From contig JAHEIW010000004.1 in assembly GCA_024639185.1 (NCBI GenBank), positions 1-64,000 of the forward strand: a stretch of DNA of 64,000 nucleotides, read 5' to 3'. Position numbers and translations under genes: made by a program. This DNA comes from Deltaproteobacteria bacterium (GTDB lineage Bacteria; Desulfobacterota; Desulfobacteria; Desulfobacterales; JAHEIW01). Positions 5,053-14,440 of this stretch are shown here, piece after piece; the first letter of the stretch is position 1, and each line of letters begins with the position of its first letter. The notes below the pieces were generated by a model that saw only the letters and a list, made by a program, of their open reading frames with translations, did no database searches and was not told where the DNA came from.

Positions 5053-6033
5053 ATGATTGAACTCGATATTACGATATTATTTGCCGGCGTGATTGCCGGC
5101 GCCGCGCCGATCGTTCTGGCGGCTCTGGGCGAGACCATTACCGAAAAAGCCGGGCTGATCAACCTTTCGCTGGACGGCTCTATCTTGTTGAGCGCCATGG
5201 CGGCCTTTGCAGTTGCCTTTGAAACCCACAGCCTGCTGGCCGGGTTTGCCGCCGGTGCCCTGGTGGGCGCACTGATGGCACTGACCGTGGCGGTTTTCAG
5301 CATTTACCTGGGCCAGAACCAGGTGGCCGTCGGGTTTGTGTTAACCCTGATGGGCCGCGATCTGGCCTATTTTATCGGAAACCCGTATTCCCGCATCCAG
5401 GGGCCGCAGGTCAAGCCGCTGGCTGTTCCGCTGCTGGATAAGATGCTGTTTATCGGCGATGTGTTTTTTCACCATAATCTGCCGGTGTATTTCAGCCTGC
5501 TGCTGATTTTGCTGTGCTGGTGGTATGTCTATCACACGCCTTACGGCCTCAAGCTGCGCTCGGTGGGTGAGCACCCCCGGGCCGCTTTCGCCCGCGGAAT
5601 TAACCCCAAAAGATTGCAGTTATTGTATGCCATCTGCGGCGGCCTGATGGTGGGGTTGGCCGGAGCCACCTTTTCACTGGCCACCAAGCCCGGCTGGGGC
5701 CGCCCCCAGGGCGCCGAAGGCACCGGCTGGATTGCGCTGGCGCTGGTTATTTTCGGCGGCTGGAATCCGGTGCGCGCGGCCATCGGGGCCTATCTGTTTT
5801 CCTTTTTGCAGGTTCTGGGCATCTATCTGCAGGGATGGTTCCCGTCGGTGCCTGCCCAGGTCTTTCAGGTGGCGCCCTTTCCGCTGATGATTTTTACCCT
5901 CCTGATCATGTCTGTTGCCCAGAAAGAATCTGTGCAAATTTGGGCTGAAGGCAAAGCGCACGTCAAAGCCCTGCTGAACATGTTTTCGGGCATGGCGCCT
6001 TCGGCCCTGGGCAAGCCTTACCGTCCAGAATGA
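5053..6033 (+). CDS. ABC transporter permease (nucleoside/BMP type)
   Basis: Multi-TM; AGLINLSLDGSILLSA motif; operon context. Confidence 0.88.
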   Translation: MIELDITILFAGVIAGAAPIVLAALGETITEKAGLINLSLDGSILLSAMAAFAVAFETHSLLAGFAAGALVGALMALTVAVFSIYLGQNQVAVGFVLTLMGRDLAYFIGNPYSRIQGPQVKPLAVPLLDKMLFIGDVFFHHNLPVYFSLLLILLCWWYVYHTPYGLKLRSVGEHPRAAFARGINPKRLQLLYAICGGLMVGLAGATFSLATKPGWGRPQGAEGTGWIALALVIFGGWNPVRAAIGAYLFSFLQVLGIYLQGWFPSVPAQVFQVAPFPLMIFTLLIMSVAQKESVQIWAEGKAHVKALLNMFSGMAPSALGKPYRPE

Positions 6034-6390: not shown

Positions 6391-7551
6391 ATGTTTCAAC
6401 GATGGATAGAAATGCCTTTTCGTAGAAGTTGTCTGATTATTGGCTCGCGCCGTTCCGGGAAAACGACACTTCTGAAGCATCGTTATCCGGATTGGCCATA
6501 CGCCACCTTGGACGATTTGGATTATCTTGATTGGGCCAAACGCGATCCAAAGGGCCTAATCAGCCATTTGGGCGATAAGGCAATCATCGATGAAATTCAA
6601 CGTCTGCCAATGCTCACGATAGCCGTTAAATATGCCGTCGATAACGAAAAAGCCAGGTTTTTAATGACCGGTTCGAGCACCCTCGGTCTGCTGGATGCAG
6701 CGGCCGATTCCCTTGCCGGGCGCATAGACATCATATCGCTGCCGACTGCTTGCTGGGGAGAAGAATTGGGAGGTCCCACGCATTCTTTTTTTAGCGATCA
6801 AGCCCCCCCACTTCAAATCAAAGAGGCCCTCCGCAGTCTTTCGGGAGCTATGACCTATGGCCAATTTCCCGAAGTGCTTATTCAGAAAAAAGATAGCGAC
6901 AAACACGAAGTGTTGGTGAATTACCGCAATACCTATTTTACACGGGACCTGATGCAGCTGTCCAACATCGAGAACCTGGATGGTCTATTAGCGGTATTGC
7001 AGCATCTGGCGCGATCTATGGGATCGCATCTGGAAGTTTCCAATTTCGCCAGAGAGGCAGGCATCAGCCACCCAACAACAAAAAAATATCTTAATGCCTT
7101 GCAGCAAGCTCAGCTGACCTTTAAGCTCTACGGTTACCAGTTCGGTCCCGCGAAACGCTATATCAAGGCTGCAAAAACGTATTTCGCCGACATCGGCATT
7201 ATCCACAGCCTGAATGCCCGCATCGGCACCGGCCAACTTTTTGAAAATTTCGTTCTGGCGGAATTTGAAAAGCGCAGAAAACTTGGCATGATTAAAACAG
7301 ATCAGTTCTTCTATTATAAAAGCGCCGGAGGAAACGAAATCGATCTGGTCTTCGAAGTGGATAATACTGTTCATGCCATTGAAATCAAATCGACTAAAAG
7401 ACCGGCACCCCGGGATTTGCACAATCTGAAAAAGTTCAGCGACAGCCTGAACCGCCCTGTGCGGCGCTATCTTATTTACATGGGAGAAAAATACCGAACA
7501 ACAGAGGATATCCGGCTGATTCCCGCCGCTGCTTTATTCAGAGGGCAATAA
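6391..7551 (+). CDS. AAA ATPase with C-terminal DUF4143-type domain
   Basis: Walker A GSRRSGKTTLL, IDEIQRLP, LMTGSS; C-terminal GNEIDLVFE...AIEIKST. Confidence 0.85.
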   Translation: MFQRWIEMPFRRSCLIIGSRRSGKTTLLKHRYPDWPYATLDDLDYLDWAKRDPKGLISHLGDKAIIDEIQRLPMLTIAVKYAVDNEKARFLMTGSSTLGLLDAAADSLAGRIDIISLPTACWGEELGGPTHSFFSDQAPPLQIKEALRSLSGAMTYGQFPEVLIQKKDSDKHEVLVNYRNTYFTRDLMQLSNIENLDGLLAVLQHLARSMGSHLEVSNFAREAGISHPTTKKYLNALQQAQLTFKLYGYQFGPAKRYIKAAKTYFADIGIIHSLNARIGTGQLFENFVLAEFEKRRKLGMIKTDQFFYYKSAGGNEIDLVFEVDNTVHAIEIKSTKRPAPRDLHNLKKFSDSLNRPVRRYLIYMGEKYRTTEDIRLIPAAALFRGQ

Positions 7552-7667
7552 GCCCTAATTAACCTTGGCCGTTAAACACATTCAACCCCGGTAAGAAGTT
7601 CCCTTCTAACCCTCTCTTTTTTACAAACCCTGCCGCCTGAGTGAGATACCTCACCCTATAAAATAAA

Positions 7668-8020
7668 GGGACGTTGTTGATTTGTTGCGCAACTTTGTAC
7701 AAGCATAATAGTGGTTGCTGCAAACGCTTTGTAAGATTATTCTCGCACGCAAACCTGCGTCGCTGAATACAATCAGCTTATTACTATATTTGTGAAGTAT
7801 CGCACATGCGACGTTCTGCCTTGGCAGTTTCTGTATTCGTTGAAGCTACGCTGGAAATGGACGACAGCAGGCGTTGGGCGCCAAGGCTCAAAGAATGTGG
7901 TGTAACGTGGTTTAAGGTGCTCTGTCCGGATTGAAGGTGTAATTTTTTGGCAATACTCCATCGCTCCATCATTCCATTCAGTTTATTCAATCAAGTTGCG
8001 CAACAAATCAACAACGTCCC
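7668..8020. mobile_element. MITE-like segment bounded by 28-bp perfect inverted repeats
   Basis: GGGACGTTGTTGATTTGTTGCGCAACTT at 7668-7695 and its exact reverse complement at 7993-8020. Confidence 0.7.
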
Positions 8021-8128
8021 CTTAGTTGGCCCAATCCAGCCTTCGCAGCCGGTGCTGCTTCGGCGGAGTCGGCAACTCCGGCACTCTACCGGTGTTTTGG
8101 CATAGGGCATGGCGTAGGGCGGATCACT

Positions 8129-8201
8129 CGTTTTTTACTACAATACTTATGCCGCCATCCTTTTTTGCGTTATTCCGAACATTATTATGGCAAGCGGTAT
8201 A
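8129..8201 (+). repeat. R2 repeat family, copy C (partial)
   Basis: cgttttttactacaatacttatgccgccatcc...attccgaacattattatggcaagcggtata. Confidence 0.7.
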
Positions 8202-8306
8202 AATAGTTTGACAGAAAACATTTTGCATACTATTTTAGTTAACAAAATGTTACTAATTATAAATTTATTATTTGTTAACAATATGTTACTAACAACAGGT
8301 ATACAC

Positions 8307-9428
8307 ATGAAAAATCCATTTAGTTATACAGGCATTGTAAAAGGTGACGCATTTTGCAACCGGCAGACCGAACAGACGGATTTGCTGAAATTTATCAAAG
8401 GATCCCAAAACGTGCTGCTCTATTCTCACCGCCGATATGGTAAAAGCTCGCTCATTTATCAGCTCTTTAAGCGAGTGCAGCGGCAACGACTCCCAATTGA
8501 TACACTTTATGTCGAGTTATACGGAACGTTGTCTGAAAAGGAATTCGTTTCCGCCATCCTGGCCGGTCTGAATCAAATCGAATCCCGCCTGGAAAAGCTT
8601 GTAAACCGGGTCAAAGGCGCCCTCACCTCGGTTAAGCTGGGGATGTCCATAGATCCGGTGACCGGTTCTCCGGGTGTTGCGGTCTCATTTGATACTGGTT
8701 ACAATGAAACGATCCTTGGCGATGTTCTGGGTTTGCTGGACAGATTTTCAGAAAAGCGCAAACTCATGGTTGTGTTCGATGAATTTCAGGAAATAGCCGG
8801 CTACAGGCAGGAGGGATTTGAAAAAAGACTCAGGGCGATCATTCAGCAGCATGGAAACATCAGCTATTTTTTCTGCGGCAGCCAGCGCCACATTCTCACC
8901 GAGATCTTTACCGTTCAGAACCGGGCATTTTACAAGTTGGCGCAAAGTTACCCGATAGATAAAATTGAAACCCGATACTATGTTCCCTGGGCCCGGAAGC
9001 TCTTCATGAAAAGGGGCAAAAAAATTAAAGCGGAAATCATCGAGGAAATCGTAAACCGGTGCGAAAATCACCCCATGTATGTGCAGCAATTTTTATTTTA
9101 TTTATGGGAAAATAAAGATACAGCGCTTTCAATGGAGACGGTCGATCGGATAGAGCTAAAGATTCTCCAAAGCAGCCACAATGAATTTTTAAATCTCTGG
9201 GAGTCCCTGACCATAAATCAGAAAAAAACACTAAAGCTTATTATATACACCGATGGCAAGGATATGTTTTATGCCAATGCCTTGCAGACCGTTGATCTAT
9301 ATGCTGGCTCGCAGGTGACGCGGTCCCTGGATAAGCTTCTGCGAGACGACATCGTTCTTAAAAACGCTGACTACAAAATCCAGGATGTGATGTTTAAGAA
9401 GTGGATCCAGACATTTTTGTGGAAATAA
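8307..9428 (+). CDS. ATP-binding protein (archaeal-type AAA ATPase family)
   Basis: Walker A SHRRYGKSSLI, Walker B MVVFDEFQEI; ATG at 8307 is a better start than 8187 (MKNPFSYTGIVKGDAFCNRQTE). Confidence 0.8.
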   Translation: MKNPFSYTGIVKGDAFCNRQTEQTDLLKFIKGSQNVLLYSHRRYGKSSLIYQLFKRVQRQRLPIDTLYVELYGTLSEKEFVSAILAGLNQIESRLEKLVNRVKGALTSVKLGMSIDPVTGSPGVAVSFDTGYNETILGDVLGLLDRFSEKRKLMVVFDEFQEIAGYRQEGFEKRLRAIIQQHGNISYFFCGSQRHILTEIFTVQNRAFYKLAQSYPIDKIETRYYVPWARKLFMKRGKKIKAEIIEEIVNRCENHPMYVQQFLFYLWENKDTALSMETVDRIELKILQSSHNEFLNLWESLTINQKKTLKLIIYTDGKDMFYANALQTVDLYAGSQVTRSLDKLLRDDIVLKNADYKIQDVMFKKWIQTFLWK

Positions 9429-10123: not shown

Positions 10124-10256
10124 AAAAGCCGGGTATTTTGGGTGAAACAAAAGAATAAGCTTTACAACTTTTATTTACACGACCTATGATTGTGCTTTAA
10201 TCTGTATAATTGAATAACAGGCATTGCATTGCTACAGCGGACAAGGAGTCAGAAAA

Positions 10257-11138
10257 ATGAACTGGAAAAATTGTAAATGGATTTTGCTGTTGGTTTTCAT
10301 AATCGTCCCGGGTGCTTTCACCGGTGCCATGGCCTCCGATAATCTGGAGTGGGACGTATATCAGACCCTGAATCTGGAGACATCGCCCATCGATGTGGCT
10401 GTTACCTATGATGGTCGTAAGATCTTTATTCTGACGGATCAGGGCGAAATATTGGTCTACTCTTCAGCCAAGAAACCGGATGCGAAGATTAATGTCGGCA
10501 AGCACGTGGATCGGATTAAATTGGGTCCCCGCGGCGATACGCTGATTTTAAGCAGCGGCAAGAACAAAACCGTTCAGATGATTACCATTGATTTTATTCA
10601 GACTATCAATACCGCCGGCTCTCCTTTCAAGGGGCAAGAAAATGCGCCCGTTGTGATTGCCGTTTTCGATGATTTTCAATGAAAGTACTGTGCCGGGCTG
10701 GTGCCCGTACTCGAGCAGGTGCTCGAGAAATATCCGCAAGATGTCAAAGTGGTTTTTAAAAACTTTCCGCTGCAAAATCACAAATTCGCCATGAAGGCCG
10801 CCGTAGCGGCTCTGGCGGCTGAAAGCCAGGGCAAATTCTGGGAGTTTCACGACCTGTTGTTCGAAAATTATAACAAAGTCAATGACCAGAAAATTCAGGA
10901 TATTGCTGTGGCCGTCGGTCTGAACCAAGAAGAATATGAAAAAATGAAAAAAGACCCGGCTACGCAAGGCCGGGTCAGACGGGATCTGTCAGATGGCCGC
11001 CGGGCCGGGGTCAGAGGCACGCCCACCGTTTTTATCAACGGCAAGCGACTGAGAGATCGCAGCCTCCAGGGATTTCAGGTTGCCATCGACAAGCAGCTTG
11101 AAAAACTCGGTAAAACCGCCACCAAGCCCACCTCCTGA
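10257..11138 (+). CDS. candidate selenoprotein: N-terminal propeller-like segment plus DsbA-like thioredoxin-fold domain with UxxC active site (TGA 10680-10682 read as Sec)
   Basis: ORFs 10224-10682 and 10701-11138 lie in one frame separated by a single TGA; VVIAVFDDFQ-[TGA]-KYCAGLVPVLEQVLEKYPQDVKVVFKNFPLQNHKFAMKAA is a DsbA-type active site with TGA at the first Cys; SD aaggag before ATG 10257. Confidence 0.8.
10684..10727 (+). promoter_or_regulatory. candidate bacterial SECIS region
   Basis: Hairpin 1: AGTAC(10684-10688)/GTACT(10707-10711) with inner GGGC-TGGT-GCCC (10695-10706), loop 16 nt after TGA. Hairpin 2: CTCGAGC-AGGT-GCTCGAG, loop about 34 nt after TGA. Confidence 0.6.
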
Positions 11139-11159: not shown

Positions 11160-11202
11160 AAAAAACCTCGCTGAAAATTTTTTTGGCGGGGTTTATTTTT
11201 AG
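11160..11202 (+). terminator. Rho-independent terminator-like hairpin
   Basis: AAACCTCGC...GCGGGGTTT followed by ATTTTT. Confidence 0.65.
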
Positions 11203-11225: not shown

Positions 11226-11576
11226 TCACCGGTCGAGGTATGATTTCTCTTTCTGCACTTCAGTTTCAGCTTCCGGCAGTTCAGAGACGGGCTCGCAGGG
11301 TTTGCCCTTAATGGCCGTTGAGAGCTGTTCGACCACCGAGAGCCGGTCCCGGATAATCAGGCTATTGGTGGGACGGTAAGCCGTGATGCTGCCGGCAGGT
11401 GATAGAAATGGTTCCAGAACTGCCGCCAGTTCCTCGGCGTCGGCATGTTCCAGTTGAATCATGCAGAAGACGATGCGTTCGCCACTAAGGCTATCCCGCC
11501 GGGCAAAACCCGGCTGTGTAGAAAACAGGGTCAGGCATAGCCACAGTGCCATTAAAAAGGCTATATATCTCATCAT
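11226..11576 (-). CDS. small secreted protein resembling a secretin N-terminal (NolW-like) domain
   Basis: Signal peptide; IQLEHADAEELAAVLEPFLSPAGSITAYRPTNSLIIRD resembles secretin N-domain repeats. Confidence 0.6.
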   Translation of the reverse strand: MMRYIAFLMALWLCLTLFSTQPGFARRDSLSGERIVFCMIQLEHADAEELAAVLEPFLSPAGSITAYRPTNSLIIRDRLSVVEQLSTAIKGKPCEPVSELPEAETEVQKEKSYLDR

Positions 11577-11904
11577 TAAAACCCAATTCTAATATATCTG
11601 CTAGTATTTTTTGGCCTGTTTTACGATTGGCGTCAAGCTTTCAATTTTAGATGTCATTCCCCCGGCAAACTCATTCAGATTGGTGAAAAACCAGACTTTC
11701 CGGGTGACATCCCCCATTTTTTCCATCAAAGCAGTGCGCACCAATTGTTAGCTAATAAAATTATTGAATAGATTTCATAAGGTTACATTTTTTTTACGAA
11801 TGGGTTTTCACCTGGCATTTATTTTGAATTTATCTGTAGCGGTTAATTCTCTTATTAACAATTTTAATCGTTAACAGATATAGACAACTACATTTCTATA
11901 CCTC

Positions 11905-12903
11905 ATGCCACGATTAGCTCGCATAGATGTGGCCGGTGTGCTGCATCATATCATCATCCGCGGGATTAACGACCGCGCGATCTTCAAAAATGACAGCGAC
12001 CGTGACAATCTGCTCGACAGGCTTGCCGTGCTGCTGCCGGAAACCCACACGGCCTGTTATGCCTGGGCGTTTTTACCCGACCATGCCCATTTTCTGATGC
12101 GCAGCGGGCCGGAGGGGATTTCGCGCCTGATGCAGCGATTGCTGACCGGCTATGCCCGAACGTTCAACCGCAGGCACCGGCGAAAAGGGGCACTGTTCCA
12201 GAAGCGCTACAAATCCATTGTCTGCCAGGAGGATGTGTATTTCAGGGAGCTGATCCGATACATCCATCTAAACCCCATCCGGAGAAAACTGTTAAAAGAT
12301 ATTGAAGGATTGAATCAATTTACTTACAGCGGGCACGCCACGCTGATGGGCAAACATGCCCGGCCCTGGCAGGATGTCCGCTTTGTGCTGTCCGGGTTTG
12401 GCAAAGGTATTTCAGAATCCCGCAAGAATTATCTGGACTACGTTAAGGCCGGGTTTGGCCATCGCAGAAAAACGGAATTGAGCGGCGGCGGTTTGGTTCG
12501 CAGCGCCGGTGGATGGGCGGAAGTAAAGAAGCTGCGCGACAACGGAAACAACCATATCAAAGGTGATGAACGCATCCTGGGCGACAGCCATTTTGTCGAA
12601 GCGATTTTAGCAAAGACAAATGGAAACTCAAACAACAACCATCACCGCAAACCAAACGGCGCAAATTTTCGTAAAGTCGAGCAGCGGATTGTACAACGAT
12701 TCGGCATCCAAAGAGATCTGATTTACGCAAAAGGACGCCATCGCGTTCAGGTAGAAGCCAGAAGCCTGTTGTGCTATCTGGCAGTGCGCGATCTGGGTTT
12801 AAGCCGCACCGATCTGGCCAAACGGCTTGGAATGACCCAGCCGGCAGTCGGTTATGCTGTTGACCGGGGAAAACAAATCGCCAAAAAGATAGAAAAAACA
12901 TAG
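11905..12903 (+). CDS. REP-associated tyrosine (Y1) transposase, RAYT/TnpA-REP type
   Basis: MPRLARIDVAGVLHHIIIRGI, DHAHFLMRSG, YIHLNPIR; C-terminal DnaA-like HTH (ARSLLCYLAVRDLGLSRTDLAKRLGMTQPAV). Confidence 0.88.
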   Translation: MPRLARIDVAGVLHHIIIRGINDRAIFKNDSDRDNLLDRLAVLLPETHTACYAWAFLPDHAHFLMRSGPEGISRLMQRLLTGYARTFNRRHRRKGALFQKRYKSIVCQEDVYFRELIRYIHLNPIRRKLLKDIEGLNQFTYSGHATLMGKHARPWQDVRFVLSGFGKGISESRKNYLDYVKAGFGHRRKTELSGGGLVRSAGGWAEVKKLRDNGNNHIKGDERILGDSHFVEAILAKTNGNSNNNHHRKPNGANFRKVEQRIVQRFGIQRDLIYAKGRHRVQVEARSLLCYLAVRDLGLSRTDLAKRLGMTQPAVGYAVDRGKQIAKKIEKT

Positions 12904-12937: not shown

Positions 12938-14440
12938 CTATTCTTCTGCAAACGTCGGCGGGCGCTTATCAAACCAGGGCTGCGCTTCTTCGAGCTGTGC
13001 GGCCAGTTGTAATAGTGTGGCGTCTTCTGCGTAGCGACCGATAAACTGCACCCCGCAGGGCAAACCGTCTGCCGTCCAGTGCAGCGGTACCGACATGGCC
13101 GGCTGGCCGGTGAAATTGGCCAGCTGGGTGAAGGGGGTTTTTTCGAGGTTTTCCACCGCCAGCTTGTCCGTTACTCCCGAGGCAATCAGCAAGCGGCCCA
13201 GACCCAGGGTATTGATTGTTTTCAACAAAGCCACCTCAATGGGCTTAGGCGCCAGCTCGCCGATTTTAACCGGCGGGTAGGCCGTAGTGGGCGTCAGGTA
13301 TAGATCATAGTCCTCATGAAAACGGCCCATAATTCTGGCCGCCAGTTCCCATTCACGTTTTGCCCGCACGAATTGTCCAGCGCTAAAGCTACGGCCCAGC
13401 AAGGCCACTGTCCAGGTAAGGGTTTCCACATCAGATGGACGGGCTTTTCTGCCCAGAAGCAATGTCAGATCGTCTATTACAGCGGCGATCTCACCGGAGT
13501 ACAGAATAACCAGGCCTTTGGCCAGGGCCTGGCCGTCGACTTCAGGGCGCGCTTCTTCTACGTGGTGGCCCAATTCTTCCAGAAGCCCTGCGGCTTGTTC
13601 CACGGCGCGGGAGCATTCCGGGTGCACCTTGGTACCAATGGGCGATTGGGTGTTAAAGGCGATTTTAACTCGTTTTGGACGCTGTTCAATTGTTTTCAGA
13701 TAAGCCTGTTGTGGCGGCGGGATGACATAGGGCGCGCCGGCATCCGGTCCTTGAGTGGCATCCAGGGCGGCAGCGCTATCCCGCACAGAGCGGCTGATGA
13801 CATGCTCGACTACAGCACCCTGCCAGGTTCGGCCGTGGAGCGGCCCATTGGGTGTACGGCCCCGGGTTACTTTTAAACCAAACAGGCCGCAACAAGAGGC
13901 TGGGATACGTATCGATCCAGCACCGTCACTGGCAGAGGCCAGCGGCACCATTCCACCGGCAACAGCGGCTGCGGATCCACCGCTAGAACCGCCTGGTGTA
14001 TGGTCCGTGTTCCAGGGATTGCGCGTTGGACCGTGCAATTCAGGCTCTGTGATCCCCAGCAAGCCGAATTCCGGTAAGTTGGTTTTGCCCAGAATCACCA
14101 GGCCGGCCTGCTTGTAGCGTTTGACCAGCTCACTGTCGCGGGCCGGAATGTAATTGCGGCAGGCTTTAGATCCCATGGTTTGCGGCACGCCGGCCAGATC
14201 GCTTAACAAATCCTTTAACAGAAAAGGCACGCCGCAAAAAGGCCCGTCAGGAAGCGTTTTCTGAACCGCTTTACGGGCCTGATCGAAAAGGGGCGTAATG
14301 ACGGCATTCAAGGCCGGGTTGACACGTTCAATCCGGACGATGGCTTCCTCGCAGATCTCCGCCGCTGAGAGTTCCTTTTTTTTCACCAGCTGCGCCAGAC
14401 CGAGCCCGTCATATTCAGCGTACTCTTCAAAGCCTCCCAT
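12938..14440 (-). CDS. amidase (amidase-signature family)
   Basis: [59 protein letters not shown]. Confidence 0.92.

Follow-up and report, generated by a model that had tools for sequence, protein, structure and literature searches.

A DsbA-like protein with predicted selenocysteine and an N-terminal two-blade propeller fragment in a deltaproteobacterium of the Desulfobacterales

Does the TGA at 10680-10682 of this contig terminate a gene, or is it read as selenocysteine (Sec) within a longer one? In the window (the whole stretch of 64,000 nucleotides that was analysed), ordinary ORF calling yields two ORFs, 10224-10682 and 10701-11138. The frame at 10257-11138, on the other hand, consists of 293 codons and then a TGA stop, and its sole internal TGA is codon 142, placed between AVFDDFQ and KYCAGLVPVLEQV. 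The original prediction had described one frame interrupted only by this TGA and split in two by an ORF caller; the split was obtained, and the single frame is borne out by translation, homologues and dN/dS. The best candidate for the start codon is ATG 10257, where the matches of relatives at 62-83% identity begin. TTG 10224 is just the farthest 5' start that the frame allows. The features of the gene and its 3' side are as follows.

10257-11138, + strand: whole proposed selenoprotein gene, 293 codons including the UGA for Sec, with TGA stop (translation, homologues, dN/dS)
10680-10682, + strand: recoded UGA, predicted selenocysteine 142, first residue of U-K-Y-C (only TGA or a Cys codon in aligned homologues)
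10689-10691, + strand: resolving cysteine 145, TGT (Cys in every aligned homologue)
11163-11194, + strand: possible intrinsic terminator 3' of the gene (weak; one of two terminator-like sites found, 2.0 being expected by chance)

Of 291 genomes from the same class, 143 contain a homologue (E <= 1e-10), as do 46 of 297 genomes sampled from the phylum (E <= 1e-40), and full-length forms with and without the internal TGA are also present in other parts of the phylum. The TGA had been proposed to replace the first Cys of a CxxC motif, leaving UxxC, so that homologues should carry Cys or TGA at this position. After reading the loci codon by codon, TGA, TGC and TGT were the only codons aligned to residue 142, in agreement with this proposal. 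Among the 75 full-length same-class homologues used as rows of the protein tree, 43 carry TGA and 32 carry TGC or TGT. By inspection of the sequence, the mature protein has no redox pair other than Sec142-Cys145. The codon usage at 142 also bears on the possibility that TGA encodes some amino acid other than Sec (Trp, for instance, under NCBI code 4) or is read through non-specifically. The alternative residue is always Cys and never Trp, the window gene and several relatives end in a TGA stop, and the SECIS hairpin described below tracks with the TGA; this explanation is extremely improbable and was rejected.

The part of the gene beyond the TGA is under strong purifying selection, as judged from dN/dS values of 0.02-0.08. 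For the part after the TGA, the window gene gave 0.034 and 0.021 in comparison with two genomes of the same genus as the host (G145 and G078, respectively), and 0.082 with G030, a comparison in which synonymous sites are close to saturation. The constraint 3' of the TGA is at least as strong as that of most of the part 5' of it. Reading of the rows showed other stops in a few homologues, at the C-terminal end or in the far N-terminus of distant copies, and none inside the gene among relatives at >=62% identity. If the gene were a decaying pseudogene, the TGA would be a nonsense mutation of TGC or TGT and the downstream half would be untranslated, and the split in ordinary ORF calling could be taken in its favour. 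The comparative data refute this: the low dN/dS downstream and the same TGA in 44 homologues, together with a covarying SECIS and a full set of Sec machinery (below), leave it hardly credible, and it was rejected. Frameshifts or stops in close relatives had been named as the sign of such decay, and the gene survived this test, the only disrupted copy being that of G078. This copy (L024/L052; on C9 and C19) breaks close to the end of one contig; residues 190-206 occur twice, and the C-terminal part is present again at the end of another contig. Since the break lies near one contig end and the second half at another, it is probably an assembly fault.

For the window gene itself, a one-base sequencing or assembly error might be considered, the assembly being in 443 contigs. 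However, the TGA is found at the same codon in both G145 and G078 and in tens of other genomes, and the SECIS hairpin does not depend on that base. This explanation, even less probable than decay, was rejected because dozens of independent genomes share the TGA.

Two hairpins fold in the RNA downstream from the UGA.

10710-10727, + strand: candidate SECIS hairpin CUCGAGC-AGGU-GCUCGAG (RNAalifold consensus, covariation, bSECIS limits)
10690-10710, + strand: additional hairpin with a GGGC-UGGU-GCCC core, between UGA and SECIS (folds in the window gene, variable in relatives)

The candidate SECIS has a stem of 7 bp, a loop of 4 nt (AGGU, 10717-10720) starting 34 nt after the UGA, and an MFE of -10.7 kcal/mol. 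These values are inside all the bSECIS limits listed in PMC13188914, i.e., a loop of 3-9 nt with a G in its first two positions, a stem of 4-16 bp, a distance of 16-37 nt from the UGA and an MFE <= -7.5 kcal/mol. RNAalifold of the 48 nt from the UGA, using 42 distinct Sec homologues, gave this one hairpin. The hairpin with the UGGU loop (16 nt after the UGA) was tried as SECIS and rejected because it is missing from this consensus structure, which led us to prefer the AGGU hairpin; because of its variability in relatives, it is not counted as essential. The search of Rfam gave no above-threshold match in the SECIS region.

Both-sided changes were observed in five of the seven stem pairs (27 doubly changed cells). 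The covariation score was 0.344 against 0.149 +/- 0.017 after shuffling, a level reached by 0 of 500 shuffles, and the pairing was destroyed when the partner was slid by 1-3 columns. Because the shuffle leaves relatedness in place, the Cys homologues served as a further control. From synonymous shuffling with the protein fixed, 3.6 of 6 stem pairs were expected in the 44 Sec genes and 5.9 were observed (folding z -2.4); in the 33 full-length Cys homologues, 2.9 were expected and 3.4 observed (z -0.5). A separate folding comparison gave z -1.5 for Sec and 0.0 for Cys. The loop is AGGU or AGUU in all 44 Sec genes. The SECIS, as judged from these comparisons, is preserved in Sec genes beyond codon choice and is degraded in Cys homologues.

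A host that decodes Sec was expected to carry selA, selB, selC (tRNA-Sec) and selD, and all four were found in the host, a sulfate-reducer-type bacterium whose assembly comprises 5.09 Mb in 443 contigs and is 92% complete: tRNA-Sec with UCA anticodon (75.2 bits), SelA (612 bits), SelB (380 bits) and SelD (368 bits). The host selD (L017, G000:C252:81674-82594) contains one in-frame TGA, a common feature of SelD, and its product is probably itself a selenoprotein. SelB (E <= 1e-60) was detected in 39 of the 40 other searched genomes having a Sec copy; the exception, G206 (88% complete), has tRNA-Sec. Several relatives carry a second SelB gene (or second tRNA-Sec) with an adjoining tRNA-Sec-like gene, at G229:C246 (L123), G230:C100 (L124), G088:C31 (L125), G183:C35 (L126), G111:C148 (L127) and G155:C22 (L128). 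The anticodon of the adjoining tRNA was read as GCA (Cys) in G229 and as UCA in the others. This arrangement points to a second cassette for Sec insertion, possibly recoded, in several relatives.

The original prediction of a DsbA-like selenoprotein with UxxC is supported by the machinery, the TGA/Cys alignment, dN/dS and the SECIS. We estimate a probability of about 0.97 that the gene encodes a functional selenoprotein, a periplasmic DsbA-like enzyme with SECIS-directed Sec142. SelB and tRNA-Sec would insert selenocysteine at UGA 10680-10682, as directed by the hairpin 10710-10727. After export, the DsbA-like domain is predicted to use the Sec142-Cys145 pair for thiol-disulfide exchange in the periplasm.

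The predicted protein is composed of three parts.

10257-10337, + strand: putative signal peptide, about residues 1-27, core LLLVFIIV, likely cleavage after AMA (sequence inspection)
10338-10604, + strand: two-blade YVTN/WD40-type beta-propeller fragment, about residues 28-116 (profile matches, conservation)
10605-11093, + strand: Thioredoxin_4/DsbA domain, residues 117-279, with UxxC and the cis-Pro motif RGTPTVF (Pfam, DsbA-family structures)

The hydrophobic N-terminus is kept in homologues, and the protein is likely exported to the periplasm, the putative signal peptide being judged by inspection. The propeller-like segment noted ahead of the catalytic domain proved in profile searches to represent about two YVTN-type blades. 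A profile of 20 homologous N-terminal domains matched the S-layer YVTN propeller 1l0q (E 4.6e-27) and also many WD40 propellers, and the fragment is conserved in nearly all full-length homologues. An extra Sec form lacking the propeller domain (L095, G227:C1:6650178-6650696) lies about 8 kb from the full-length Sec copy of G227. With two repeats in about 89 residues, each chain is short of a complete closed propeller (4 or more blades). The catalytic domain matched Pfam PF13462 (85.7 bits, cut-off 23.2, E 5.5e-24) and PF01323 (75 bits, cut-off 25.6, E 8.7e-21). It contains UKYC and GTPT, corresponding to the UxxC and cis-Pro elements of the DsbA/Thioredoxin_4 family, and the best PDB matches are DsbA-family structures, including chains named copper/metal resistance (Scs-type). 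The AlphaFold model, made from two sequences only, has a mean pLDDT of 44.6, too low for structural conclusions.

DsbA-like selenoproteins as a class have been known since 2005-2006. Those with UxxC were described in the Sargasso Sea set in 2005 (PMC1088965), those of Anaeromyxobacter dehalogenans, Desulfovibrio desulfuricans and Desulfotomaculum reducens followed in 2006 (PMC1794560), and the class is listed in a 2026 review (PMC13188914). These proteins (form 1, UxxC, PF01323) share the DsbA-type domain with UxxC, but the available text of these sources mentions no propeller fusion; some of the earlier sequences could belong to the present subfamily. A propeller-fused DsbA selenoprotein was not found in the open-access literature. 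The best NCBIfam match is NF041057 (Rcas_1661 family thioredoxin-like (seleno)lipoprotein), also with UxxC and called DsbG-like in the review PMC13188914. The alignment spans the catalytic domain of the window protein (residues 111-279), leaving the first 69 positions of the model unaligned, and the window protein is without a lipobox cysteine at the expected cleavage site. The window protein scored 85.1 bits and ten homologues 56-89 bits, all below the cut-off of 190. As to the N-terminal domain, 1l0q and other WD40-like propellers share the same blade repeat but are complete, while the window protein has only about two blades per chain. What is new here is the two-blade propeller fusion, the position below the cut-off of the NCBIfam selenoprotein models tested, and the Sec/Cys switching.

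By parsimony, the protein tree (75 rows, 43 Sec and 32 Cys) requires a minimum of 18 changes between Sec and Cys, of which at least 8 are forced by well-supported branches. Such frequent switching, as read from the tree, is counted among the new aspects of the subfamily. Since most genomes with Cys forms only are also able to decode Sec, loss of the trait does not account for most of the Cys forms. The hairpin is still nearly complete in a few Cys homologues that branch, with modest support, within groups of Sec ones, with 6 of 6 stem pairs in L025 (G005) and 5 of 6 in L042 (G183). These two are possibly the result of a recent change from Sec to Cys with a relic SECIS.

Based on the gene content of the host, we can also predict the redox role. 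The only other homologue found in the host genome (G000:C33) combines VKOR with a DsbA domain of the CxxC type. This distant paralogous domain (27% identity) differs from the selenoprotein in having CxxC, the VKOR fusion and no propeller. The fusion would be a self-sufficient oxidant, which fits the oxidant role. DsbB was not found in the host genome, and two DsbD/CcdA-type transmembrane proteins were. From this combination, a reductase/isomerase-type role of the selenoprotein is somewhat favoured. A CcdA/DsbD-type membrane protein would then recharge the selenoprotein, which would not be the main disulfide oxidant, and Sec would make the attacking residue a better nucleophile. The converse assignment, as the main periplasmic disulfide oxidase (DsbA proper), agrees with the DsbA type of the catalytic domain and with the presence of a VKOR protein that could reoxidise it. 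We consider it less likely, because the VKOR protein already has its own fused CxxC DsbA domain, and because the redox potential is usually lower when Sec is the nucleophile, favouring reduction.

No partner conserved across families emerged from the neighbourhoods around homologues. In two loci of the same genus (L114 and L051), the selenoprotein gene immediately follows a permease gene homologous to 5053-6033, and in L114 it is itself immediately followed by an amidase-like gene homologous to 12938-14440. The intervening parts of the window, 6391-9428 and 11226-12903, contain two AAA-type ATPase genes, a short Secretin_N fragment and a Y1-transposase-like gene; these genes look like lineage-specific insertions.

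For the reductase/isomerase-type enzyme, the N-terminal fragment raises the question of quaternary structure. Two blades cannot close a propeller alone, so that several chains may combine or a partner may be bound. In the first case, the fragments of several subunits would join into a full propeller, forming a multimer. This oligomeric propeller is proposed tentatively, the precedent being the N-terminal domains through which DsbC, DsbG and ScsC oligomerise. In these proteins a thioredoxin-fold redox domain likewise stands behind an N-terminal domain, but that domain is not made of propeller blades and the active site is CxxC. The composite picture, of a distinct unnamed subfamily of the phylum with a multi-chain propeller, acting as an oligomeric periplasmic Sec-dependent isomerase/reductase and frequently switching between Sec and Cys, is offered as a speculative working model, with odds short of even.

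The subfamily is a well-supported, apparently unmodelled and widespread group of selenoproteins with an unusual half-propeller front end, and automatic annotation probably splits such genes in two in many genomes of the phylum. Its members provide a natural series for Sec/Cys exchange, from TGA with intact SECIS to Cys with decayed SECIS, together with a few Cys forms that keep a near-intact relic. The two-blade propeller fusion leads to a testable prediction on quaternary structure.
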